Below are positions 12,887 through 25,890 of a stretch of DNA of 33,395 bases, one piece after another. Under the pieces are notes generated by a model. That model saw only the letters and a list, made by a program, of their open reading frames with translations, had not been told where the DNA came from and ran no database searches. The stretch comes from Spirochaetaceae bacterium (GTDB lineage: Bacteria; Spirochaetota; Spirochaetia; CADAEX01). Each line of letters begins with the position of its first letter. The stretch's first letter is position 1. Position numbers and translations under genes: made by a program. Where the stretch lies: the NCBI GenBank assembly GCA_009780675.1, contig WQZP01000024.1:1-33395 (forward strand), written 5' to 3'.

Positions 12887-13228
12887 ATGGATTTCAATGC
12901 AATGTTGGATAATTTAGTAAATTCTTTAAAACCTTCTGACCCATATAAAATAATTTTATTTGGATCTCATGCAAGCGGTAATCCAAATGAACATAGCGAT
13001 ATAGATATTATGGTGATACTTGATAATGACCATGTTTCAAAAACCTTTGAAGAACGACTAAATAAAAAAATAGCTATTAGAAATATGGTTCTTGAAATTA
13101 ATAGAAAAATACCATTAGATATACTGGTTTACTCAAGGGAAGAATTTAACATAGTAAAAAACTATGGAAATTATTTTATAGATGAGATTGAAAAGACAGG
13201 AAAGGTGATCTATGAAAAAGCTGGTTGA
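12887..13228 (+). CDS. MNT-type minimal nucleotidyltransferase (antitoxin-like)
   Basis: 113 residues of the small nucleotidyltransferase family that pairs with HEPN proteins. The signature is complete: G26-S27, ten residues, D38-I-D40 (FGSHASGNPNEHSDIDIMV), i.e. GSx10DxD. A third acidic residue is plausibly in PLDILVYS. In characterised MntA/HepT pairs the MNT protein AMPylates and silences its HEPN partner. The gene overlaps the HEPN gene by 17 bases, the usual arrangement. Such pairs are common in accessory regions and act as stability or abortive-infection modules; this role is inferred. Confidence 0.88.
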   Translation: MDFNAMLDNLVNSLKPSDPYKIILFGSHASGNPNEHSDIDIMVILDNDHVSKTFEERLNKKIAIRNMVLEINRKIPLDILVYSREEFNIVKNYGNYFIDEIEKTGKVIYEKAG

Positions 13229-13604
13229 AGACTGGATTTTCATGGCAGGCAGAGACCTAAAGACAGCAGAAATTTTAATCAAGGAAGATTCTCCGCTTAC
13301 AAATATTATTGCGTTTCATTGTCAGCAAGCAATTGAAAAATATTTAAAAGCATACTTGATTGAAAAAAATATTCCCTTAATTAAAACCCACGATTTAATA
13401 AGATTAAACAATATGATAAAAGAAATAAAGAACTTAGGTATTGATGAAAAGAAACTGATAATAATAAATGAAGTTTATATAGAAACAAGGTATCCAAGTG
13501 AATTAGGATTATTACCTGATGGATTACCTGCTACTGAGCAAGTAGAAGAGTTCATAAAATACACAAAAGAAATAAAAGATATTATTACTAACGAATTAAA
13601 ATAA
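13212..13604 (+). CDS. HEPN-domain protein (HepT-like partner of MNT)
   Basis: 130 residues of the HEPN family: DWIFMAGRDLKTAEILI, the hallmark FHCQQAIEKYLKAYLIE helix, KTHDLIRLNNMI and the late ETRYPSELG. The four-helix layout and the overlap with the MNT gene define the pair. Many HEPN toxins are RNases with an R-x4-6-H motif. I do not see a clear R-x4-6-H here; the conserved late element is TRYP. Nuclease activity is therefore uncertain. It could instead belong to the HEPN group that binds nucleotides or is AMPylated without strong RNase activity. Confidence 0.83.
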   Translation: MKKLVEDWIFMAGRDLKTAEILIKEDSPLTNIIAFHCQQAIEKYLKAYLIEKNIPLIKTHDLIRLNNMIKEIKNLGIDEKKLIIINEVYIETRYPSELGLLPDGLPATEQVEEFIKYTKEIKDIITNELK

Positions 13605-14187: not shown

Positions 14188-14538
14188 TTATTTTTTGTCT
14201 GTTTTTTCATATTTGATATTTTGCAGTTCAATAAGTTCGTCTATTTGTCGCAGCACAAAGTCCTGGTATTCTGGATACAACTCATTGAACAAGCTGGTCA
14301 TGCGCTCCATTTTTTTTTCTGTGGTGCTGTTGAACATACATCCCTCGCCAGTAAGCAGCCAGTGTTTGTTGGCGGAAAAAGTGGTGGAAATAAGGTGGAT
14401 AAGGCGGTCTTTGACTTCGTTGTTACCCAACTCAATCCCGGCAAGATAACCATTTGAGACATATACAGCCTTTGCAAAGGCTCTTTGGGATAATCTTAGG
14501 CTACACCTAAGCTCTCTGATTCTTTCATTAACCGTCAT
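14188..14538 (-). CDS. XRE-family helix-turn-helix regulator
   Basis: 116 residues. The N-terminal HTH reads MTVNERIRELRCSLRLSQRAFAKAVYVSNGYLAGIELG, with the recognition helix around SNGYLAGIE, and is followed by the HWLLTGEG motif often seen in phage-type regulators. The C-terminal half is helical and charged and probably dimerises. A 21-bp palindrome lies 31 bases upstream over the likely promoter, so autoregulation is likely. A small plus-strand gene is divergent to it. It is the only DNA-binding regulator seen at the left edge of the accessory region. Confidence 0.87.
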   Translation of the reverse strand: MTVNERIRELRCSLRLSQRAFAKAVYVSNGYLAGIELGNNEVKDRLIHLISTTFSANKHWLLTGEGCMFNSTTEKKMERMTSLFNELYPEYQDFVLRQIDELIELQNIKYEKTDKK

Positions 14539-14919: not shown

Positions 14920-15255
14920 ATGAATACTACAAATTGTATTGAAGAAAAAATTACTCTAGAAGAAACAGGGCAGCTATTAAAGTATTCTCTTTCAAATGAT
15001 TTAAATGATATTAAGAATGCAATTTATGAAAGAACAGGTTATAGCATAAATTTAGATGATGTAATTCCGAAATTAAATCCATATCTCTCTGTAAGTGTAA
15101 AACAATTAATGAATAAATATAATGCTAATTTTTCTATGACAACTAGTAGAAAAGATAACGCTATATGTGTATGGATAAACCGTCGAGTTGTAGACGAATG
15201 GTTTACTGTTATAATTAAAGAAAAAAATAATTCACTATGTGTCATAGATTGTTAA
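14920..15255 (+). CDS. hypothetical protein upstream of the Cys-repeat precursor
   Basis: 111 residues, no signal peptide or membrane segment, not recognised. An AGAGGGAAAT ribosome binding site precedes the ATG. The N-terminal half looks helical (EETGQLLKYSLSNDLNDIKNAIYERTG). The C-terminal half looks like strands (AICVWINRRVVDEWFTVIIKEKNNSLCVIDC). It ends 22 bases before the repeat-protein gene and probably opens the same transcript, so an accessory or immunity role is possible. No motif supports a specific function. Confidence 0.65.
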   Translation: MNTTNCIEEKITLEETGQLLKYSLSNDLNDIKNAIYERTGYSINLDDVIPKLNPYLSVSVKQLMNKYNANFSMTTSRKDNAICVWINRRVVDEWFTVIIKEKNNSLCVIDC

Positions 15256-15277: not shown

Positions 15278-15955
15278 ATGAGTAGAGTATTTTTCATTAT
15301 CGTTCTTTTACTATTGGCAGCGTCTATCTTTGCCCAACAGCAAGCTGAGAATTCCAATCGGGGTGTAGCTAATGCTAGACCAGGTGATTTTATTATTCGA
15401 ACAAATGGGCAGAGAGTTATATTAACTCAAAATGATATTGATCATGCTCGTAGGCAATTGGGATTGAGTACAACCCAAAATACTACATCATCATCTAGCA
15501 ACACTGCGTCTGGTAATACTGCTTCTACTTCAAGTTCAAATGATTATCTTATTTTATTTATTGTGTTAATAGTAATAGTTCATATTGTTATTACAACAAT
15601 TATAGCTAACAAAGTAGGTGGCGGTTGGGCTGCTGGCTACTTTTTTTTAGCACCTCTAATTCTTTTATTGCTCTTAGGTAATGTTGGTGGTGTAGGTAAT
15701 CAATCCAAATTTAGAGGTGGTGGTGTTAGCGGTGGCGGTAGTAGACCAAGTAGTAGCTCTAATTATCTTCCTTCAGGATCAAGCTCTAATAGTTCGCGTG
15801 GAACTTGCGGAATGGGGTTAGGCTGTAGCGGTGGTGGTGGAACTTGCGGAATGGGGTTGGGCTGTAGCGGTGGTGGTGGAACTTGTGGAATGGGGTTAGG
15901 CTGTAGCGGTGGTGGTGGAACTTGCGGAATAGGATTAGGTTGTAGCGGAAAGTGA
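15278..15955 (+). CDS. membrane protein with C-terminal Cys/Gly tandem repeats, putative radical-SAM-modified precursor
   Basis: 225 residues. A signal peptide (cleavage likely near SIFAQQ) is followed by a small region (ARPGDFIIRTNGQRVILTQNDI), a Ser/Thr/Asn linker, two hydrophobic helices (about 90-110 and 117-136), a Gly/Ser linker, and four repeats from residue 175. Three are GTCGMGLGCSGGG and the last is GTCGIGLGCSGK. Each has a C-x5-C pair: C177/C183, C190/C196, C203/C209, C216/C222. With the signal peptide removed, two helices would place the repeats outside. The stop overlaps the GTG start of a radical SAM/SPASM gene. By analogy with repeat-type RiPP precursors, the repeats are likely core peptides. 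I know no family with exactly this repeat. Confidence 0.75.
   Translation: MSRVFFIIVLLLLAASIFAQQQAENSNRGVANARPGDFIIRTNGQRVILTQNDIDHARRQLGLSTTQNTTSSSSNTASGNTASTSSSNDYLILFIVLIVIVHIVITTIIANKVGGGWAAGYFFLAPLILLLLLGNVGGVGNQSKFRGGGVSGGGSRPSSSSNYLPSGSSSNSSRGTCGMGLGCSGGGGTCGMGLGCSGGGGTCGMGLGCSGGGGTCGIGLGCSGK
15800..15952 (+). repeat. 39-bp tandem repeat array, four copies (last 36 bp), coding
   Basis: Copies start at 15800, 15839, 15878 and 15917, each beginning GGAACTTG(C/T)GGAAT. The first three differ by single silent changes; the fourth has a few more changes and a shortened end. The near identity points to recent expansion or homogenisation, so copy number may vary between strains. Each copy encodes one 13-residue Cys/Gly unit. 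Confidence 0.95.
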
Positions 15956-17232
15956 AGTCAAATAAACTTTTATTTGTTAATGATATATTTATTCATTCGG
16001 AAGACAATCGTGTTTTATACCTGAACCCTGTAGCTCCTGATTGGATAACGATAAGTATAAAATATAAACCCATATTCGACTTATTCAATAATGAAAATGA
16101 AAAAAATATATTTAGTTATATAAAAAATAATTATTCTGATGAAAAAGATATTCTAATCCCTCAAATAAAAAAACTAATAAAGACTTCTAAAATATTTAAG
16201 AGGAATCATAAAATTACAAATCAAAAAATTAAGCGCATAAAATTTCCATATAGTATATATCTTACTTTGACAGATAATTGCAATTTAAATTGTAAATATT
16301 GTTATGCTATAGAGCGTGATAATAATGAAAATATAACTTTTGAAAAATGGAAAGAATATGTTTCCTCAATTGTTAAATTTTCTAAAAAACCAATCTTTAC
16401 ATTTACAGGAGGTGAACCTCTAATTATTCCCTACATATTTGACTTAGCTTCATTTGTAAAAAGCAAAGGTAGCAATACAATATTATTAACAAATGGAACT
16501 TTGATTACCTCCAATGAAATTGCTAAAAAAATTTCCGAATCTTTTGACTTAGTAAAAATAAGCATAGATAGTCTTGATGATGATGTTAGTAAATATTTAC
16601 GAGGAGATGGTGTCCTGAAAAAAGTAAAAAATGCCTTCCAGTTGCTATGCGTAGCTGGTTGTAATGTAAGCATTCTTGCAACAGTAACGTCAAAAACTTG
16701 TGAGCAATTAGATGTTTTTGCTAAATATTTTAATAATCAGGTAAATTTCCAACCTCTCTATTCAATTGGGAGAGCAAAAAATATGAATGATTTATTTGTA
16801 ACAGGAGAGCAATACTACAATGCATTAACAAAATCAGGAAAATTTAATTTATTGCGTGAATATAAAAATAAAATATTTAATTTTAAAAACAATCCATGTA
16901 CACGTTGCTCAATGGCGGCTACAGAAATAAGCATTAACTCAAATGGTGATGTATTCCCTTGTCATATGTTACATTATAAAGAATATATTTGTGGCAATCT
17001 AAATAATCATAGTATAAAAAAAATATATTATAATTCAAAAAAAATTAATGAATTACGTAAAATAAATGTTGATATTCTTCCACAATGTAAAAAATGTAAT
17101 TTTAGATATTTTTGCGGTGGAGCATGCAGAGCAAGAATAGACATTCAAGAAAATGGTATTTATGGACATGATAACTTTTGTGTTTTTGAGCAAAAACAAA
17201 TCCTTGATGCCTTAATCTATTCTTATGGGTAA
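15952..17232 (+). CDS. radical SAM/SPASM peptide maturase with PqqD-like N-terminal region
   Basis: 426 residues. The first ~90 (LLFVNDIFIHSEDNRVLYLN; IFDLFNNENEKNIFSYIKNNY; ILIPQIKKLIKTSKIF) resemble a PqqD-type RiPP recognition element. The radical SAM cluster Cys are C110, C114 and C117 (CNLNCKYC), followed by FTGGEPL, the SAM-binding GGE. The C-terminal SPASM part has C316/C319, C337, C379/C382 (CKKC), C388, C392 (CGGAC) and C410, enough for auxiliary Fe-S clusters. Such enzymes form thioether, C-C or C-O crosslinks in peptides. The GTG start overlaps the repeat gene's stop (GTGA), strongly suggesting that protein is the substrate. The chemistry cannot be told. Confidence 0.9.
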   Translation: MKSNKLLFVNDIFIHSEDNRVLYLNPVAPDWITISIKYKPIFDLFNNENEKNIFSYIKNNYSDEKDILIPQIKKLIKTSKIFKRNHKITNQKIKRIKFPYSIYLTLTDNCNLNCKYCYAIERDNNENITFEKWKEYVSSIVKFSKKPIFTFTGGEPLIIPYIFDLASFVKSKGSNTILLTNGTLITSNEIAKKISESFDLVKISIDSLDDDVSKYLRGDGVLKKVKNAFQLLCVAGCNVSILATVTSKTCEQLDVFAKYFNNQVNFQPLYSIGRAKNMNDLFVTGEQYYNALTKSGKFNLLREYKNKIFNFKNNPCTRCSMAATEISINSNGDVFPCHMLHYKEYICGNLNNHSIKKIYYNSKKINELRKINVDILPQCKKCNFRYFCGGACRARIDIQENGIYGHDNFCVFEQKQILDALIYSYG

Positions 17233-17283: not shown

Positions 17284-18666
17284 ATGAATACATCGTTATT
17301 AGCAAGTATTAAATGGATCATCACTAAACATGGTGAAAACATTCTTGGTGATCCTATACAGTTGAAAAAGATTTTTGCCAATTATACAAAGAATGAGCCA
17401 AAAGAGGAACGTGTTGCATTTGGCTGTTGCATTGAAATGGGTTGCTATAGAAAACTTAAAAAAGCTCGGAATATAAATGAACGCAGCCAAATAAAAGCAG
17501 ATTTAGCGTATAAATTACATAGTAGTACAGGCATAAATATGTCCCTTTGCAGAGATACTCTTGATATGCTTGATGCAGCTATTTTTGGAGATGTAGCACC
17601 TGCCCTACCTGCTGCTTCTCCTGTTCAATCAAGTCTTAAACCAAGTAGTCATATATGGAAAAAACTTGAATTAAAATGGGTTCGTCTTGGTATTGTCGCA
17701 ACTCTGCTCATTTTTTTAATTTTTAGTTTTGCTTTTAGAACGATAACGCAGTCTAAAAAAGATCTTCTGGATGAGACAGTTGATAATAGAATTGAGGATA
17801 GAATCGAAACGTTAGAAAGAATAGCCAAACATCAAGAACATATAGCTGGGCAATTGGAGCAGCTTAGAAAACAAATTGCAGGAGAGCAGAGTGGGCAAAA
17901 CCCATCGGTCCAAAATACTGCGCAGCAGAAAACAGAAAATGAATCATTGATTGAGAAACTTCAAAATGATTTGCTCATGGAAATTCTTGCCATAAAAAGA
18001 GCTAACAGACGTGATATTTCGGGCAGAATCAAAGTATTGGTTTTTCCTACTAATTATAGAGGCAGCTTATTCAGGATGAATCTTGATACTCTTAGAGCTT
18101 CTGTACAAGAGGGAATACAAATAATCCAGGAGCAGGCAAGAAAGTATAATCAAAATATTTCGATTGATTTTGATATTGTGACGGCAAGTAACGGCTTGTA
18201 TGTTTCCATAAATAGTTTTCAGGAAGGGCTAAGGCAATTTTCTCGACACAGGAGCAGGTACATGAATTACAACCATGTTGTTCTTGTTCATGCAATTGAT
18301 ATGGTGGGACGCTCTTATATTATAGTGGCAGAACCAATAGGCAAAAATGAAGAGCATATAATAATGTGGTTTAAGGGACACGATGGTTTTTGCGCCGGAA
18401 CTCTGGCTCATGAGATTTTTCATGCTTTTGGCGCAGAAGATTTGTATTATGAGCAGGGAGTCGTTCCCGGGAATGTAGAAAATTATTTTAAGACACTTCT
18501 AGGTAATTCAATAATGATTGATAGTCACAGATACTCCAACCTGGACCCCATTAACGCATGGCTTATAGGCTGGAACAAAAACCCTGAACCCTGGTACGCA
18601 TGGTTTATCAATAAAAGAGATAACGCTGTTGCGTTGTGGGTTAAAGATAAGGAGAAAGTTCAATGA
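17284..18666 (+). CDS. shared-module protein with TM helix, coiled coil and HExxHxxGxxD metallopeptidase-like domain
   Basis: 460 residues. Residues 1-102 are the helical module shared with three neighbours, closest to the FHA-like protein (both have NEPKEERVAFG or DEPKEERVAFG). A Pro/Ser linker, a TM helix (133-153) and a charged coiled coil (157-200) follow. The C-terminal domain has H376-E-I-F-H380-A-F-G-A-E-D386, a metzincin/M6-like zinc motif with Asp as third ligand, preceded by GTLA and followed by LYY and LDPINAWLIGW, as in immune-inhibitor-A-type peptidases. One TM with the module in the cytoplasm would put the peptidase outside. Substrate unknown; the Cys-repeat protein is a candidate. 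The stop overlaps the next ATG. Confidence 0.75.
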   Translation: MNTSLLASIKWIITKHGENILGDPIQLKKIFANYTKNEPKEERVAFGCCIEMGCYRKLKKARNINERSQIKADLAYKLHSSTGINMSLCRDTLDMLDAAIFGDVAPALPAASPVQSSLKPSSHIWKKLELKWVRLGIVATLLIFLIFSFAFRTITQSKKDLLDETVDNRIEDRIETLERIAKHQEHIAGQLEQLRKQIAGEQSGQNPSVQNTAQQKTENESLIEKLQNDLLMEILAIKRANRRDISGRIKVLVFPTNYRGSLFRMNLDTLRASVQEGIQIIQEQARKYNQNISIDFDIVTASNGLYVSINSFQEGLRQFSRHRSRYMNYNHVVLVHAIDMVGRSYIIVAEPIGKNEEHIIMWFKGHDGFCAGTLAHEIFHAFGAEDLYYEQGVVPGNVENYFKTLLGNSIMIDSHRYSNLDPINAWLIGWNKNPEPWYAWFINKRDNAVALWVKDKEKVQ

Positions 18667-19895
18667 ACCCCATGTTTGCTGATATTATACAAAAACTTAT
18701 TTCTGAACAAGGAGAGTCCATACTCTCTAACCCTAAACGTGTTTCGGCTTTTTTTGCTGACTTGGCACAGGATATTCCAAAGCCGCAAAAAACCGCTTTT
18801 ATTAAGTGTCTGGAACATGGATTTTTGCAAATATTTAAAAATGCTAATGAAGTAGAACACTCCAAGTGTAAAGAACAGCTTGCGCAAAAGCTGCATAACG
18901 AGGAGGGGTTTGATATTGGCTTGTGCAGGAAAAGCATTGATTTGTTGGAAAGAGTGTTGTTTGGGGAACAAAAAAGAAGAAAGAAGTGCTGCGAAAAATG
19001 TAGTAAGGAACTATTAGAAGAATGGAAGGTATGTCCGTATTGTGGGGTACAAATTTTTACTCAAGGGAGTAGTTTAATTTCATCGGATTCAGGTATTGGG
19101 GCATATGGCATTGGAGTAATAAAACCGTCATTGATAATACCTATAGCGCTTACACAGTCGTCAATGATACTCATAAATGGAGGAACTTTTATCATGGGTA
19201 GTTCTTCTGATGAGCAGGGCTGGAAAAATGAACTTCAGCATCAGGTTGCAATAAGTCCATTTTATATGGGTATATATCCTGTAACACAGAAAGAGTATCG
19301 GAAAGTAATGGGTATAGAGCCAAGTCATTTTAAAGGAGATAATCTGCCAGTGGAAATGGTAAACTGGTTTGACGCGATAAAGTATTGTAACAGACTAAGC
19401 CAAAGTGAAGGACTAACTTCTGTATACACTGGAAATGAGGATAACGTAAAGTGGAACCATAATGCTAATGGATTTCGGCTGCCAACAGAAGCGGAGTGGG
19501 AATATGCCTGTCGTGCAGGGACAACTACAACATTCAGCACGGGAAATAACATAACCACAGGTCAGGCAAATTACGATGGTAATTATCCATACAATAGGAA
19601 TGCTATAGGGGAGTTTCGTGAAAGGACAACAGCGGTGGGAAGTTTTGCGGCGAATCCTTGGGGCTTATACGATATGCATGGAAATGTATGTGAGTGGTGC
19701 TGGGATTGGTATGGGGATTATAAAAGCAATGCGTATAGAGATTCTACCGGAGCGGTTTATGGCTATAGCCGAGTGATTCGAGGCGGATCATGGTTTAGCA
19801 ATGGGCATGGTCTTCGTTCAGCTCGACGTGAGGCTTACTCTCCGTCACGTCAGGCTAAATATCTCGGGTTTAGGTTGGCGCGCAATGCGGAATGA
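18663..19895 (+). CDS. shared-module, zinc-ribbon and FGE/SUMF1-fold protein
   Basis: 410 residues: shared module (1-101), a zinc ribbon with C110-EK-C113 and C124-PY-C127, a hydrophobic linker, then a formylglycine-generating-enzyme-like domain from about 168 (INGGTFIMGSS, PVTQKEYRKVMG, FRLPTEAEWEYACRAGT, NPWGLYDMHGNVCEW, RVIRGGSW, GFRLAR). True FGEs have Cys pairs just after RGGSW; here the stretch reads FSNGHGLRSARR, so the copper-binding catalytic Cys are absent. The domain is more likely a binding or C-type-lectin-like display domain, or another SUMF1/EgtB-like function. A GGAG ribosome binding site precedes the ATG, which overlaps the upstream stop. Confidence 0.83.
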   Translation: MNPMFADIIQKLISEQGESILSNPKRVSAFFADLAQDIPKPQKTAFIKCLEHGFLQIFKNANEVEHSKCKEQLAQKLHNEEGFDIGLCRKSIDLLERVLFGEQKRRKKCCEKCSKELLEEWKVCPYCGVQIFTQGSSLISSDSGIGAYGIGVIKPSLIIPIALTQSSMILINGGTFIMGSSSDEQGWKNELQHQVAISPFYMGIYPVTQKEYRKVMGIEPSHFKGDNLPVEMVNWFDAIKYCNRLSQSEGLTSVYTGNEDNVKWNHNANGFRLPTEAEWEYACRAGTTTTFSTGNNITTGQANYDGNYPYNRNAIGEFRERTTAVGSFAANPWGLYDMHGNVCEWCWDWYGDYKSNAYRDSTGAVYGYSRVIRGGSWFSNGHGLRSARREAYSPSRQAKYLGFRLARNAE

Positions 19896-19941
19896 AAGAA
19901 TAAGAGGATGAAAAAAATGATGGTAACAAGGAGAGAATTGA

Positions 19942-20589
19942 ATGGATTCTAATTTTATTACTATTCTTCAAAAACTTGTTCTTGAACAAGGGAAAGAAGT
20001 TCTGCTTAATCAAGTAAAATGTAAAGCTCTTTTGGCTGATTATACACACGGTGAATACAAAAAAGAAAGTCGCCTTCTATTCCAGGCTCTTGATATAGGT
20101 GTGCCAAAAGCAATAGAAGCTGCGTATGATTTTAAAAAATATAAACAACAACAAATTAAAATATTGAAAGAAGAATATTTTCTGGCTGAAGAGGTTGCTG
20201 CTGATGTTGTGGATACTTTAGTGCTGGTTTTGAAGGGTAAGGAAAAAAGTTATTGCAAAAAATGCAGTAAAGAATTACTGGAAGAATGGAAAACTTGTCC
20301 ATATTGTAGTTCAAATGTTGCATGTCAGGAATCTATCAATAATGATTCATTCAAGTTGCATAAAGAACAATCGATAAACCATATATCGTTATCAAATTCA
20401 AAACCAATCAGTCATATGACATCACAAAAAACAATAGACTCCAATTGCCAAAATACTAATATAGCACCGTCAGAAGCACAGCATGAAGAGGATGGTACTT
20501 CTTTGGGCTGTATATTTGGTGTTTTAATATTTATTGGTTGTGTATTACTCCTGCTTTTTTATGGGAGTAATAATATGAAGGAAAAATAA
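19942..20589 (+). CDS. shared-module and zinc-ribbon protein with C-terminal TM anchor
   Basis: 215 residues: a divergent copy of the shared helical module (1-99; FITILQKLVLEQGKEVLLNQ), a zinc ribbon (C105-KK-C108, C119-PY-C122) nearly identical to the preceding protein's (CSKELLEEWK in both), a polar Ser/Asn/His-rich linker, and a C-terminal hydrophobic helix (about 188-207) ending NNMKEK. No catalytic domain is present, so it looks like an adaptor that tethers module partners to the membrane. An AAGGAGAG ribosome binding site supports the start. It lies 36 bases before the kinase gene. Confidence 0.78.
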   Translation: MDSNFITILQKLVLEQGKEVLLNQVKCKALLADYTHGEYKKESRLLFQALDIGVPKAIEAAYDFKKYKQQQIKILKEEYFLAEEVAADVVDTLVLVLKGKEKSYCKKCSKELLEEWKTCPYCSSNVACQESINNDSFKLHKEQSINHISLSNSKPISHMTSQKTIDSNCQNTNIAPSEAQHEEDGTSLGCIFGVLIFIGCVLLLLFYGSNNMKEK

Positions 20590-20625: not shown

Positions 20626-21900
20626 ATGGCAGATTTACCAAAAGGGCAAACAATTCAAACAAAAAAGTTCCAGAAGATTGTAGTTGAGCATAAACTGGGT
20701 GAAGGTGGGCAAGGCATAGTGTACCGTGTTGATTACGGAGGCAAAACAAAGGCACTCAAATGGTATTCTGGTAAAAAGTTAAAAGACCCAAAGAAATTTT
20801 ATGCTAACCTTGAAAATAATATAAAAAAAGGAAAGCCAACTAACGCATTTCTGTGGCCAGAAGATATAACCGAACATAAAGGAGCAGCTTTTGGCTATAT
20901 CATGGATTTGCGTCCTGGCGAATACAAAGATTTTTCCAAGTTTCTTATTGGAAAAGAAGGCTTTGCAAGTATAACCGCGATGACAAATGCTGCTCTGCAA
21001 ATCACATCTGGTTTTCGGGAATTACACTTGAAAGGGTACAGTTATCAGGATTTAAATGATGGCAACTTTTTCATTAACCCTAAAAGTGGCGATGTGCTTA
21101 TCTGCGATAATGACAATGTTTCGGAATATGGTAAAAACTCAGGCATTGCTGGAAAAGCTCGATATATGGCGCCTGAAATTGTTGCAAGGGGAGACAAACC
21201 CAATATTAAGACAGATACTTATTCGCTTTCTGTAGTATTATTTATGCTTTGGACAAACAATCATCCACTCGAAGGAAAAGCTGCTTGCCCAGTGTGCATG
21301 GATGCAAAACACGAAAGAAAGATCTACGGTGAAAATCCTGTATTTGTTTGGGATCCTACAGATAATTCTAACAGGCCTGTACAGGGATTGCACAAAGGGG
21401 CAATTAGCAGGTGGCCATTTTTGCCGGGTTACTTACAAGATACTTTTATCAAAGCTTTCAGTAAAGAAGCATTAATGGATCCCATGCAGAGAATTATAGA
21501 GCAGGAATGGTTACGCATTTTTATCCGTATGCGTAGTGAAATTTTCAAGTGTCCCTGTGGAACAGTATATTTTGCCGATCCGGTTGATCCAAATCTCTGC
21601 CCCAGTTGCAAAAAGCAAAATATATTTTCGTTTTATATTAAAACATACCGGTATAATTTACCGGTCCATCAGCGAACAAAACTTTATGCCTGCCACACCG
21701 AAAAAGATTCAGATGATTTTCAGACCATCACCGGTGAAGTGTTGGTAAAGGGGAACGACTTTGAGTTGAGAAATGTATCTGATAAAAGCTGGACAATAAC
21801 TGAAGATGGCGATACTACTCAAATTGCGCCTGACGTAATAATTGTAATTAAAAAAGATATGACAATTAATTTTGGCAACACAAACGGAGAGATAGTATAG
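20626..21900 (+). CDS. Ser/Thr protein kinase of the TerY-P triad type
   Basis: 424 residues. The P-loop is GEGGQG (25-30), the ATP-lysine K45 (ALKWY), the catalytic loop YQDLNDGN with D142 and N147, and the metal Asp D161 in CDNDN (replacing DFG), then ARYMAPE and an SLSVVLFMLWTNNHPLEG region. All catalytic residues are present, so it is probably active. After the kinase domain come a zinc ribbon (C309, C311, C325, C328) and a strand-rich tail ending INFGNTNGEIV. Kinases with the NDGN loop and CDNDN motif are known next to TerY-like vWA and PP2C genes. An AAGGAG ribosome binding site precedes the ATG. Confidence 0.88.
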   Translation: MADLPKGQTIQTKKFQKIVVEHKLGEGGQGIVYRVDYGGKTKALKWYSGKKLKDPKKFYANLENNIKKGKPTNAFLWPEDITEHKGAAFGYIMDLRPGEYKDFSKFLIGKEGFASITAMTNAALQITSGFRELHLKGYSYQDLNDGNFFINPKSGDVLICDNDNVSEYGKNSGIAGKARYMAPEIVARGDKPNIKTDTYSLSVVLFMLWTNNHPLEGKAACPVCMDAKHERKIYGENPVFVWDPTDNSNRPVQGLHKGAISRWPFLPGYLQDTFIKAFSKEALMDPMQRIIEQEWLRIFIRMRSEIFKCPCGTVYFADPVDPNLCPSCKKQNIFSFYIKTYRYNLPVHQRTKLYACHTEKDSDDFQTITGEVLVKGNDFELRNVSDKSWTITEDGDTTQIAPDVIIVIKKDMTINFGNTNGEIV

Positions 21901-21923
21901 CTATATAATTAAGGAGAAAAAAG

Positions 21924-22667
21924 ATGTCACTAACATACAAAATTGAAATCCCAAGAAGGATTATGGTGTTGTTTTTTATCATTGACACTTCTGGAAGCAT
22001 GGACGGAAGCAAAATTGGAGCAGTAAATGTTGCAATAGAAGAAGTTATCCCAGCCATTAGAGAAGTATCGGATGAAAACGCAGACGCTCAGATAAAAATC
22101 GCAGCTCTTGAATTTTCTTCTGGAGCGAGATGGGTTACAGTAAGTGGACCAGTTGAAGCTGATAAATTCCGTTGGAATTATCTTGATGCTTCAGGTGTTA
22201 CTGATTTTGGAGCAGCTTGCAAGACCTTGAATGAAAAACTTTCAACTAAAGCATTTATGCAGGAAGCAACTGGTTCTTTTGCGCCAGCTATATTTTTGCT
22301 TTCAGATGGTGAACCCACTGATGACTGGCAAGGCGCTTTAGCAACACTAAAGAAAAACAACTGGTTCAAAGCGGCTATCAAGGTTGCAATTGCAATCGGC
22401 GATGATGCGAACAAAGATGTACTCAAGGAATTTACTGGTACTATGGAAGCAGTTATGGAAATTCACAATGCTGCAGTATTAAAGAAAATGATTAAATTTG
22501 TTAGTGTTACGGCTTCAAAAATTGCAAGTAAAAGTTCTAATGTTGATTCAAGTACTCTAGGCGCAAGTGCTGGCGATATGCAAAAACAGCAAGAATTGAA
22601 TACATGCTTGCAGGAATTTGCTGAAGACATTGCTACAACCCGTGACAACGATCAATCGGATTGGTAA
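21924..22667 (+). CDS. TerY-like von Willebrand factor A domain protein
   Basis: 247 residues, nearly all one vWA domain. The metal-ion-dependent adhesion site is complete: D21-T-S-G-S25 (FFIIDTSGSM), the Thr in SGVTDFG, and the Asp in LLSDGEPTDDW. TerY-family proteins bind metal through this site and act with a kinase and a PP2C phosphatase, often in tellurium/stress or conflict loci. The C-terminus is helical, with no signal peptide, so it is cytoplasmic. The stop overlaps the phosphatase ATG (TAATG). No TerD- or TerC-type genes are visible nearby. Confidence 0.9.
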   Translation: MSLTYKIEIPRRIMVLFFIIDTSGSMDGSKIGAVNVAIEEVIPAIREVSDENADAQIKIAALEFSSGARWVTVSGPVEADKFRWNYLDASGVTDFGAACKTLNEKLSTKAFMQEATGSFAPAIFLLSDGEPTDDWQGALATLKKNNWFKAAIKVAIAIGDDANKDVLKEFTGTMEAVMEIHNAAVLKKMIKFVSVTASKIASKSSNVDSSTLGASAGDMQKQQELNTCLQEFAEDIATTRDNDQSDW

Positions 22668-23731
22668 TGAGTAATTATAAATCATTCGCAACCACAGTAA
22701 TAGGCGGCATCCATATAAAAAATGGCAAAAGTTGTCAGGATGCTTGCTTTAAACATGATGATACAGATGTATCCATCGTCGTAGCCGCCGATGGTCATGG
22801 AGAAGATAACTGCTTTCGAAGCGACAAAGGCGCGAAGCTTGCTGTGGCCTGTGCGGCAAAGGGAGTGCAAGAGTTTGTAAAAATTAACGAATCCAAATTT
22901 TCTTCTGGGCTTTTCAGAAAAAAGGATATTCCTTCACAACGTGATTTTAATAAAGCAATTCGAGATCTCATTAAACACATAATCGCTTCATGGCAGACAA
23001 AAATTGAGGAAGACTACAGCACACAACCTTTTACGCTGGAAGAACTTGAAAAGACTGATGAAAAACATCGTAAGAGATTTGAAAATGGTGAAAAACTAAG
23101 TAAGGCTTATGGTACTACACTGATAGCTGCTGCAATCACCAAACACTATTGGTTCGCTATACACATTGGCGATGGGCGCATTACTGCCATGTATCCGGAC
23201 GGCAGTTTTGATCAGCCTGTACCTTGGGACGAAAGGTGTTATCTCAATGTTACAACCTCTATTTGTGATGATGATGCAAATGAGCAAACACGTTGTTATT
23301 TTTCCTATCATGGTAAAAAAACTCCTCCTGTTGCTGTTTTTCTCTGCACCGATGGTATTGACGATAACTATCCTGTTGATGGAAACGAAAAACACTTGTT
23401 TAAACTTTATCGCACCATTGCAGTAACATTCGCAGAAGATGGTTTTGACTCAACCTGTAAACAGTTGACAGATTTGGCAAATTCATTCGCAACCAAGGGT
23501 AAAGGCGATGACACCAGTATTGCAGGTTTCATTGACATGGAAGGTTTGAAGAAGACGATTCATATTTGGCAAAAGCAGATTGCTGAAGAAGTAGCTACTG
23601 CAGAAAAAGTTAGAGCAGAAACAGCTAAAGCTGGCAAAGAAGAAAAGAGAGCTGTTGAAGATTACTTAAACTATGGGGGCTTTGTTACAGAAAGCAACAT
23701 GCTTGGAAGCAAGGAAAAGAATAAGCAGTAG
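22667..23731 (+). CDS. PP2C-family Ser/Thr protein phosphatase
   Basis: 354 residues from the ATG at 22667, which shares one base with the vWA stop; a TTG six bases upstream is less likely. Metal-binding motifs are D25 (SCQDACF), D42-G43 (VAADGHGEDN), FLCTDGIDDNYP and GDDTSIAGF. It would reverse phosphorylation by the kinase two genes upstream. The last ~50 residues form a charged helix (EEVATAEKVRAETAKAGKEEKR) beyond the catalytic domain. Kinase, vWA and PP2C in this tight order make the TerY-P triad. Confidence 0.92.
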   Translation: MSNYKSFATTVIGGIHIKNGKSCQDACFKHDDTDVSIVVAADGHGEDNCFRSDKGAKLAVACAAKGVQEFVKINESKFSSGLFRKKDIPSQRDFNKAIRDLIKHIIASWQTKIEEDYSTQPFTLEELEKTDEKHRKRFENGEKLSKAYGTTLIAAAITKHYWFAIHIGDGRITAMYPDGSFDQPVPWDERCYLNVTTSICDDDANEQTRCYFSYHGKKTPPVAVFLCTDGIDDNYPVDGNEKHLFKLYRTIAVTFAEDGFDSTCKQLTDLANSFATKGKGDDTSIAGFIDMEGLKKTIHIWQKQIAEEVATAEKVRAETAKAGKEEKRAVEDYLNYGGFVTESNMLGSKEKNKQ

Positions 23732-23776
23732 GTCTGTTATTAAATATAATCTCATACGGAAAAAAGGAGTTATTAC

Positions 23777-24907
23777 ATGAATACTAATTTGCTCAATATA
23801 CTAAAACGGATTGTTTCTGAAAAAGGGGAGAATATACTTGCTGATCCGCAAAAATTAAAGCCTTTGTTCAGTGATTATGCAAAAGATGAACCCAAAGAAG
23901 AGCGCGTTGCATTTGGTCGCTGCATAGAAATTGGCGCTTACCATGAACTCAAGAACACCTGCACTGTGGGCGAAAGGCACCGCAAGAAAACTGCGTTGAC
24001 AAATCAATTACACGCCAATACAGGCATAGAAAAAACACAATGTACGACAGCGCTTGATCTGCTAGAGGCGGTGATTTTCACTTCTGCACAATCGGTTTTG
24101 CCATCGTCGCAAAGACGAATCAGCATGAGAGCGATTATCTTTGGTATAGTGGGAGCATTGGGTGGTTGGATAGGATCAATAATAGGAGAATATATCGTCA
24201 AAGAAATCAGCGGAACATTTTTGAGGGATATTATGCATTGGGCTATATGGATTGTAATGGTAGCTATTGGTGTTTCCATAGGATTGCTTATTGCACAGAG
24301 CTTATATCTTAAAAAGAAACCTATATCAAAGTCTCTTTTAAAAACTATGTTCTTTGGCATATTGATAAGCGGTGTTGCAGGCATTATTGCCGGAATAATT
24401 GTAAACATAGGAGGAGGCAATAATATATCCAGAACAATTGCATGGGGAATCACGGGGCTTGGAATAGGCCTGGCAGCCACAATATTTATTCCTAACTTCC
24501 CTAAAAAACGCGCGATGATAGCAGGTCTTTCAGGAGGCGTTATCGGCTTTATTATATCGATCCCTTTTTCTGTTCAAATCGGAGATATGATACTTGGTCT
24601 CTTTGTAGGATTAAGTGTTTCTGTCCTGGAAGAAGCTCTCCGTAAAGCATGGCTTACAATTATTTGGGGACCAAAAGAAACACGTACCATTGCGCTCGGA
24701 CAAAAACCCATTATTTTCGGTTCTTCATCAGAAGCCGATGTATACCTATCTAAGGATAAAGAACCGTCTGTCAGAGCCACTGTACATATTGAAAACTCCA
24801 AAGTTGTTATGTATGACAAAAAAAACAAGCAGCAACAAGTATTGCAAGATGGACAGCAAATAGATTTTGAAAAAGTGAGTTTTGTTGTTAGCATAAAGAA
24901 TCCATAA
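23777..24907 (+). CDS. shared-module protein with about six TM helices and an FHA-like C-terminal domain
   Basis: 376 residues. The N-terminal module (1-102) is closest to that of the metallopeptidase protein. Residues about 115-295 hold roughly six Gly-rich hydrophobic helices. The C-terminus (about 305-376) resembles a divergent FHA domain: IALGQKPIIFGSSSEADVYL, then SVRATVHIENSKVVMYD, then GQQIDFEKVSFVV. The usual GR is GS, while a Ser and the His of the SxxH-type motif are roughly in place. An even TM number would keep both ends in the cytoplasm, where the FHA part could read phosphothreonine made by the kinase. An AAAGGAG ribosome binding site precedes the ATG. Confidence 0.72.
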   Translation: MNTNLLNILKRIVSEKGENILADPQKLKPLFSDYAKDEPKEERVAFGRCIEIGAYHELKNTCTVGERHRKKTALTNQLHANTGIEKTQCTTALDLLEAVIFTSAQSVLPSSQRRISMRAIIFGIVGALGGWIGSIIGEYIVKEISGTFLRDIMHWAIWIVMVAIGVSIGLLIAQSLYLKKKPISKSLLKTMFFGILISGVAGIIAGIIVNIGGGNNISRTIAWGITGLGIGLAATIFIPNFPKKRAMIAGLSGGVIGFIISIPFSVQIGDMILGLFVGLSVSVLEEALRKAWLTIIWGPKETRTIALGQKPIIFGSSSEADVYLSKDKEPSVRATVHIENSKVVMYDKKNKQQQVLQDGQQIDFEKVSFVVSIKNP

Positions 24908-24945
24908 CGAAATGAAATACATTATAAAAAATATAGGAGAATTGT

Positions 24946-25890
24946 TTGAAGAAATTATTGTTTTATATTCTATCTTTATTTTTTTTTCATATTGAAACAA
25001 TATGCGCCAGTGAATATAAATGGGATTTAATTAATGCCTTGCTTCAAAACGATTCTGAAAGAATTGAAAATATAATTAGCTCAAACATAATGACAATGAC
25101 AGCATTGGATAAAAGACTTGTAATGAATTTTGCAATAAATTATTCATCTGGGGAAAATACATTAATGGTATTAGAGTTATTATTGAAGCACAATATATAC
25201 CCAAACTCATTTGATTTGTTTACTGCAATCAATAGAAACCGCCGAAATAGTGTAATTCAATTTATATTACGGAATGGGGTTATTCCTAATGGGGAAATAT
25301 TGCTTTTGACTATGGCGAGACAAAGGTTTGATTTAGCAAGACAATTTATTGAAATGGGGGTAGATGTTAATTTTCAATATTCCTTGTTAAGACAAGATGC
25401 GGATGGTATGACATCGCTTTTGTATGCCTCAAAATGGGGAAATCTTGAAATGGTAAAATTATTAGTGGAAAATGGTGCAAATATAAATATACAGGCTGTT
25501 AATGGGGATACGGTATTATCCATAGCCCGAAGAAATAACAATAATGCAATATTAAATTATTTATTAGCGCATGGTGCAACTGAATTCTTTAATAATGCCC
25601 CTAAAGAAAATATTGGTATTGTGAATATGCTTGATAATCAAATATTTAATTTTCAAATAGGCTCATATAGATTATCTGGAGGTAATAGGGTTATTAGGTT
25701 TACTGGAAATAAAAGTTCAGGAAATATAATTCTTATGGACTCAATAAATAATAGAGTTATTAATGGAGTTTATAGAATAGCGGGAAATAATATGACAATA
25801 ACATTGGAAGGATTTACTTTCAATTATAGATTAGATTCTAATGAATCATTTTCTGGAAATGGAGAAGTGTGGATAAGAGTAGGAAATTAG
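24946..25890 (+). CDS. secreted ankyrin-repeat protein with C-terminal beta domain
   Basis: 314 residues from a TTG start, supported by an AGGAGA five bases upstream and by a signal peptide (LLFYILSLFFFHIETICAS) beginning there. At least five ankyrin-like repeats follow (NTLMVLELLLKHNIYPNS; GMTSLLYASKWGNLEMVKLLVENGANINIQ; GDTVLSIARRNNNNAILNYLLAHGA). The last ~90 residues look like a small beta sheet (VINGVYRIAGNNMTITLEG), a type often seen in treponemal exported proteins. It probably binds proteins in the periplasm. It sits 38 bases after the FHA-like gene and is likely in the same transcript; whether it belongs to the triad system is unknown. Confidence 0.8.
   Translation: MKKLLFYILSLFFFHIETICASEYKWDLINALLQNDSERIENIISSNIMTMTALDKRLVMNFAINYSSGENTLMVLELLLKHNIYPNSFDLFTAINRNRRNSVIQFILRNGVIPNGEILLLTMARQRFDLARQFIEMGVDVNFQYSLLRQDADGMTSLLYASKWGNLEMVKLLVENGANINIQAVNGDTVLSIARRNNNNAILNYLLAHGATEFFNNAPKENIGIVNMLDNQIFNFQIGSYRLSGGNRVIRFTGNKSSGNIILMDSINNRVINGVYRIAGNNMTITLEGFTFNYRLDSNESFSGNGEVWIRVGN

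Follow-up and report, generated by a model that had tools for sequence, protein, structure and literature searches.

Within the stretch of spirochaete DNA analyzed here (33,395 nucleotides, hereafter the window), two overlapping genes on the forward strand encode a protein ending in four cysteine- and glycine-rich repeats and a radical SAM/SPASM enzyme that probably cross-links them. The combination is found again in a second genome, G254, and the two loci show that the two-gene system is real and conserved. In all likelihood, these are repeat RiPPs of a new radical SAM/SPASM-modified subfamily in which the core is borne on different carriers, a new branch within a known class of modified peptides.

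The putative precursor is the 225-amino-acid product of an open reading frame (ORF) at 15278 to 15955. Its signal-peptide-like N terminus (MSRVFFIIVLLLLAASIFA, 15278 to 15334) was recognized from hydropathy and, by eye, from an A-x-A-type cleavage site. Further along are two hydrophobic segments at approximately residues 90 to 110 and 118 to 134 (15545 to 15679), with hydropathy peaks at 90 to 92 and 121 to 122 in 19-residue windows, that are predicted to form a membrane hairpin. A Ser/Gly-rich linker then leads to the repeats. An original prediction made from the DNA alone had named these ORFs, the signal-peptide-like start, and the two hydrophobic segments, all of which were found again by ORF calling and hydropathy. 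In model searches, the repeat protein reached the cut-off of no Pfam or NCBIfam family. Its identification as the type VII secretion protein EssA (TIGR03927 and PF10661) was rejected, as the scores of 23.0 and 18.4 bits fall below the cut-offs of 32.45 and 24.1 and the alignment comprises the low-complexity linker and the first hydrophobic segment, nothing more.

The putative core occupies the extreme C terminus, where four 39-bp units (15800 to 15955) follow one another head to tail and read GTCG[M/I]GLGCSGGG, the last being GTCGIGLGCSGK and then the stop codon. All eight cysteines of the protein lie inside the units (residues 177, 183, 190, 196, 203, 209, 216, and 222). Units 1 to 3 are identical as protein and differ only synonymously, while unit 4 has Ile in place of Met and ends in CSGK. 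Could such an array be a product of composition? A degenerate version of the unit matches four times in the entire 2.4-Mb genome, always at this locus, with no match on the reverse strand and none in a backward control. Two or more CGxGxGC motifs appeared in 8 of 20,000 shuffles of the 90-residue tail; the real tail has four. The positions, the genome-wide count, and the shuffles together bear out the four C-terminal 13-residue Cys/Gly repeats that had been proposed. Viral contigs gave 40 + 1 matches to the pattern, nearly all single or in GC-rich chance frames and with no radical SAM gene close by, and plasmids gave none.

The stop codon of the repeat gene (TGA, 15953 to 15955) shares the letters GTGA with the GTG start of the enzyme gene at 15952, an overlap noted originally and re-found at the same coordinates. 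The 426-residue enzyme (15952 to 17232) matches the Pfam families Radical_SAM (PF04055; 2.4e-21) and SPASM (PF13186; 1.5e-11). A motif scan places the radical SAM cluster motif CX3CX2C at C110, C114, and C117 (16279 to 16302). In the SPASM domain (16906 to 17181; Pfam and motif), the pattern CX12GX4C plus CX2CX5CX3CX17C is complete (C319-X12-G-X4-C337, then C379-X2-C-X5-C-X3-C-X17-C410), so that two auxiliary clusters are expected.

To which family does the enzyme belong? For both it and its G254 homologue, the top NCBIfam model is that of the sactipeptide maturase StsB (NF045574), which scores 155 and 206 bits, respectively, against a cut-off of 625. The model is colinear with both enzymes from residue 4 to 10 on (residue 10 in the window enzyme), that is, from near the N terminus through the SPASM domain. 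No named maturase (SCIFF, PapB, WgkB, or others) exceeds its cut-off in the top 25 models of either enzyme, and the ACGX model TIGR04340 does not appear there. PapB reaches 74 (window) and 95 (G254) of 340 bits, the SCIFF maturase model TIGR03974 gives 83 of 425 bits with the G254 enzyme, and the WgkB and anSME models also score below cut-off. As judged by these scores, both enzymes fall outside any named family, in agreement with the original view that a system with this repeat belongs to no described family: StsB is its best match yet far below cut-off, and no NCBIfam model is reached. Of the solved structures, anSME comes closest for the radical SAM/SPASM part and CteB for the enzyme in its entire length. 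CteB is the best solved full-length relative by profile (3.8e-24) and also the top full-length fold match (5wgg; TM 0.60) of an AlphaFold model that was built from an alignment of five sequences and has a mean pLDDT of 62.5.

RiPP recognition elements (RREs) are winged helices made of three strands and then three helices, and they are common, though not universal, in radical SAM/SPASM maturases. The first 90 residues of the enzyme (15952 to 16221) likely form one, to judge from the alignments and the model. StsB is colinear over this region, CteB 5wgg aligns from profile position 42, and the model has strands at 13 to 15 and 21 to 23 with helices after them, at low confidence. The PqqD-like, RRE-type N terminus proposed earlier remains a prediction: the order in which strands and helices follow one another and the CteB match over the entire length fit an RRE, but PF05402 (PqqD) does not match the enzyme N terminus and the confidence of the model is low. 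A profile built from the N terminus alone retrieved no solved RRE.

Is the pairing of repeats and enzyme found elsewhere? In the class and phylum of the window, at least 680 sampled genomes were searched, and exactly one besides the window genome, G254, encodes a close enzyme homologue (34% identity over residues 8 to 424; E = 7.5e-69). This genome belongs to a different family of the same class. Its enzyme gene lies 3 nucleotides behind an 89-amino-acid ORF that ends in four units (GICGLGTGCSGGG) reading G[L/I]CGLGTGCSGGG, preceded by a 38-residue leader with neither a signal peptide nor a membrane segment. Unit positions G1, C3, G4, G6, G8, C9, S10, and G11 are kept between the two loci, while 2, 5, and 7 vary. 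The units are nearly identical inside each genome and the differences fall between genomes, so unit evolution is, on these two arrays, concerted, with a fixed Cys/Gly/Ser frame. The flanks of the loci have nothing in common beyond abundant gene types (an MNT/HEPN pair and FGE-sulfatase-like proteins). No equally close homologue lacking repeats was found in the sampled genomes of the class and phylum. The pairing of a repeat substrate with a radical SAM/SPASM maturase, originally drawn from one locus, thus recurs, with near-identical four-copy repeats again upstream of the enzyme. Because the same enzyme and repeats occur on a different carrier in a distant relative, the pairing looks real, and the link between enzyme and substrate, though resting on two loci, is well supported by sequence.

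Neither a transporter nor an agreed protease is kept between the loci, and no recognition sequence common to both precursors was found. The G254 leader aligns with the N-terminal module of the window protein no better than shuffles do (p ~0.37), and the notion that it is a relic of that module was rejected on this ground. Other matches to the enzyme were also set aside. Those in G647 and G680 have no Cys-repeat neighbor and belong to other families (the mycofactocin maturase model is best for the former, and the latter looks, by eye, to be of a haem-biosynthesis type). A contig scan with the single enzyme sequence turned up nothing beyond MoaA and one generic radical SAM protein, and plasmids and phages held only generic radical SAM/SPASM proteins at 20 to 29% identity. 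One locus in G647 (L052; contig C112, 6866 to 7912) encodes a radical SAM/SPASM protein with an RRE-like N terminus, for which the mycofactocin maturase model is the nearest although its cut-off is not reached. A gene for a small membrane protein comes next, and the two are possibly another peptide-modifying pair.

Base composition points to mobility. The G+C content of the enzyme gene is 26% in a window of 36%, and that of its G254 counterpart is 34% between flanks of 45 to 46%. Since both genes lie about 10 points under their surroundings, the enzyme gene appears to have moved horizontally in both genomes. It is absent from the close relatives of the window genome that were sampled, three of its genus and seven of its family. 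A 111-amino-acid gene of no known family (14920 to 15255, forward strand), which ends 22 nucleotides upstream of the repeat protein and is a possible operon member, also has 26% G+C; the G254 locus lacks it. Outside the repeats, the gene of the repeat protein is host-like at 36%. This composition fits, and cannot alone prove, an incoming enzyme and core that were joined to a resident carrier.

The carrier has relatives of its own. Following the signal peptide is an exported N-terminal module of about 50 residues (15335 to 15487) that is common to double-glycine-leader proteins linked to C39 exporters in G254, G316, and G114 (E = 6e-9 to 9e-7 in a single-sequence search; residues 20 to 70 match it at 37 to 46% in the alignment). 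In G254 (four proteins), G316, and G114, the module starts directly after the double-glycine leader (e.g., ARELTDEELFLVNGG), in place of which the window copy has a Sec-type signal peptide. A C39-peptidase ABC exporter adjoins the module proteins on contig C53 of G254, in G316, and in G114 (by Pfam for the first two and from the start of its sequence for the third); the window genome has no C39 peptidase. Many module proteins are followed by lipoprotein-like ORFs, as in toxin-immunity cassettes. A profile search found the module beyond doubt in only four of 347 sampled genomes. G254, the only other genome with the enzyme, is also the richest in the module, on different contigs, but this is a single, post-hoc coincidence. 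Matches to the membrane region in G010, G006, and G130 proved to be unrelated proteins. The membrane carrier is not shared by the two loci: in G254 its place is taken by a short leader, and the N-terminal module of the window protein is otherwise seen only right behind double-glycine leaders, in toxin-like proteins linked to C39 exporters. The same core therefore sits on two unrelated carriers.

Arrays of the double-glycine proteins, each 290 to 460 residues long, occur at L065 (G254, contig C53, 12000 to 31000), L066 (G254, contig C20), L067 (G316), and L068 (G114). They combine the common N-terminal module or related starts with Ser/Thr/Gly linkers and variable C-terminal domains, many with a lipoprotein-like ORF next, and C39-peptidase ABC exporters stand beside the arrays in L065, L067, and L068. 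Taken together, they resemble an export system for polymorphic toxins and their immunity proteins.

How might the two genes work together? Taken as a whole, a RiPP-type maturation that leads from RRE-like docking through Cys-to-C-alpha thioethers to an envelope-held tail serving competition or contact is the probable reading. The RRE-like domain would dock on the repeat protein. Repeat residues would lose an alpha hydrogen to the radical SAM cluster, and the two SPASM clusters would help to bind Cys thiols and take up electrons. The products would be sactionines, thioethers from Cys to a C-alpha, most plausibly that of glycine, with at most two in each 13-residue unit, or eight in the whole chain. 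Sactionines are favored because the acceptors, if they are among the conserved residues, are Gly, which offers only a C-alpha, or Ser10. Moderate confidence attaches to this chemistry; to our knowledge, what such enzymes do to their substrates cannot be read from their sequences. Ring geometry is a weaker proposal: the donors are six apart and Gly stands at +3 for seven of the eight window cysteines (Lys for the last), but a +3 glycine comes cheaply where 8 of 13 residues are Gly, and the donor spacing is the more specific feature. Topology and purpose are similarly tentative. The window core, on a Sec-targeted, membrane-anchored protein, would be modified in the cytoplasm, its tail then lying at the envelope and most likely on the outer side of the inner membrane; the G254 core has an ordinary short leader. 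Insertion by Sec during translation runs against this order, as the tail might escape the cytosolic enzyme. The envelope display proposed originally thus survives as a prediction for the window locus, where the signal peptide and two hydrophobic segments point to it, and not for the system at large, as the G254 leader has neither. Competition or contact between bacteria is suggested because the carrier's N-terminal module is otherwise found in exported toxin-like proteins. An evolutionary extension of this scheme is conceivable, although we would sooner doubt it than assume it: a mobile enzyme and four-unit core grafted on two unrelated carriers, with a window tail that is never released and is cross-linked at the envelope on a module taken from the double-glycine toxin export systems of related bacteria.

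Other readings bear on different parts of this scheme. The enzyme might modify the repeats by another chemistry, such as C-beta or C-gamma thioethers of the ranthipeptide type, epimerization, or a carbon-carbon link, with the variable Thr, Met, or Leu as acceptors. Known enzymes tolerate variable acceptors, and the PapB, WgkB, and anSME models also score. CteB, the closest solved full-length relative, makes a SCIFF product now known to contain a C-gamma thioether (PMC8326336). Nevertheless, the residues kept between the loci are Gly, Cys, and one Ser, glycine has no beta carbon, and the top model of both enzymes is that of a sactipeptide maturase, leaving this alternative unlikely. Less probable still is an unmodified tail that binds a metal or cluster or self-assembles while the enzyme acts elsewhere or merely co-travels. 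Cys/Gly-rich tails can indeed bind metals, but here the unit, copy number, and gene order are alike in two genomes whose flanks and carriers are unrelated, and the repeat and enzyme genes overlap translationally.

The tail could also face the cytoplasm, with only one of the two hydrophobic segments spanning the membrane and the repeats acting inside. Such a reading bears on topology alone and leaves room for the modification itself; the tail would stay accessible to the enzyme, and its membrane-near part is richer in Lys/Arg than is the short loop between the helices. Both hydrophobic segments are long and strong, however, and the signal peptide and a module seen elsewhere only in exported proteins point to export, making an inward-facing tail rather improbable, if somewhat less so than a different chemistry.

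The genes around the pair offer a few further observations. A divergent HTH_3 regulator lies upstream (14188 to 14538, reverse strand), and G254 likewise has a divergent HTH_3 gene ahead of its pair, an association that may be due to chance. The next gene downstream (17284 to 18666, forward strand) encodes one hydrophobic segment and a zinc-protease-like HEIFHAFGAED motif. That its product is a processing protease is possible but speculative; in G254, an M48 peptidase is encoded two genes downstream of the pair, and the two protease-like genes belong to different families. It is the first of three successive genes (17284 to 20589) with a similar N-terminal region of about 90 residues (e.g., LISEQGESILSNPKR), behind which lie unrelated domains: the zinc-protease-like motif, an FGE-sulfatase, and a zinc ribbon with a membrane end. 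From 20626 to 25890, a kinase with a weak TerY_C-like end, a VWA protein, a PP2C phosphatase, an FHA-like protein, and an ankyrin protein are encoded on one strand, an island resembling TerY-phosphorylation-triad signaling. The MNT/HEPN-type toxin-antitoxin-like pairs near both loci (12887 to 13604 in the window and 14727 to 15513 of L054) are 31 to 40% identical; such genes are common, and their presence may be chance.

Most known RiPPs of radical SAM enzymes are small peptides that are released. If the core truly resides on both a short leader and a membrane-anchored protein, it is the core, and not the leader or carrier, that travels with the enzyme family, and thioether-cross-linked tails can be permanent parts of the cell envelope. 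The eight small rings predicted in one repetitive chain would also provide a convenient test of how an enzyme progresses along a repeat. A survey of 211 anaerobe genomes found four RiPP clusters in Spirochaetes, none of them sactipeptide-like: all four are from Brachyspira and for linear azole peptides (PMC4289311). A spirochaete radical SAM repeat system would widen this range.

How does the system compare with those already described? The best curated match of both enzymes, colinear with them, is StsB of the Actinomycetota sactipeptide system StsA/StsB/StsC, and we know of no four-copy repeat core for StsA. The RRE there is a discrete protein, StsC, whereas any RRE here is fused to the enzyme (PMC12710340). 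The reading of NCBIfam StsB as the streptosactin enzyme is wrong, as StsA/B/C make an actinobacterial sactipeptide (PMC12710340). Streptosactin itself (the GGG family; GggA/GggB) is nonetheless similar in form. Its links join Cys25 to Ser28 and Cys31 to Gly34 (PMC8172795), giving unnested four-residue rings with Cys six apart and acceptors at +3 (PMC8172795, PMC13361665), and the unit described here shows the same Cys spacing, with Gly at +3. Streptosactin, however, is a single, released 14-mer of streptococci under Rgg/SHP control, unlike the four tandem units that one of the present loci places on a large membrane protein. CteA/CteB (SCIFF, thermocellin) shares the radical SAM and SPASM architecture and probably the RRE, but its precursor is a short six-Cys peptide unlike the window carrier. 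The ACGX (TIGR04340) and freyrasin/PapB systems also have multiple Cys units and a radical SAM/SPASM enzyme, but the unit differs.

For an enzyme that acts before export, bufferins offer a precedent, as these RiPP precursors undergo their modification in the cytoplasm before a Sec signal peptide directs their export (PMC12452194); they are modified by another class of enzyme, the MNIOs, have no membrane hairpin, and carry other Cys motifs. The nearest architectural analogue is provided by the TIGR04222 membrane proteins, although the window repeat protein does not match that model at E ≤ 0.1. These proteins have a Cys-containing, Ser/Gly-rich C-terminal tail that is predicted to be periplasmic, and they are genetically tied to an MNIO (PMC12452194). 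In the system described here, the enzyme is instead a radical SAM/SPASM protein, and the pair would, should the window tail indeed stay cross-linked and anchored at the envelope, be a radical SAM counterpart to the putative displayed tails of the MNIO/TIGR04222 systems.
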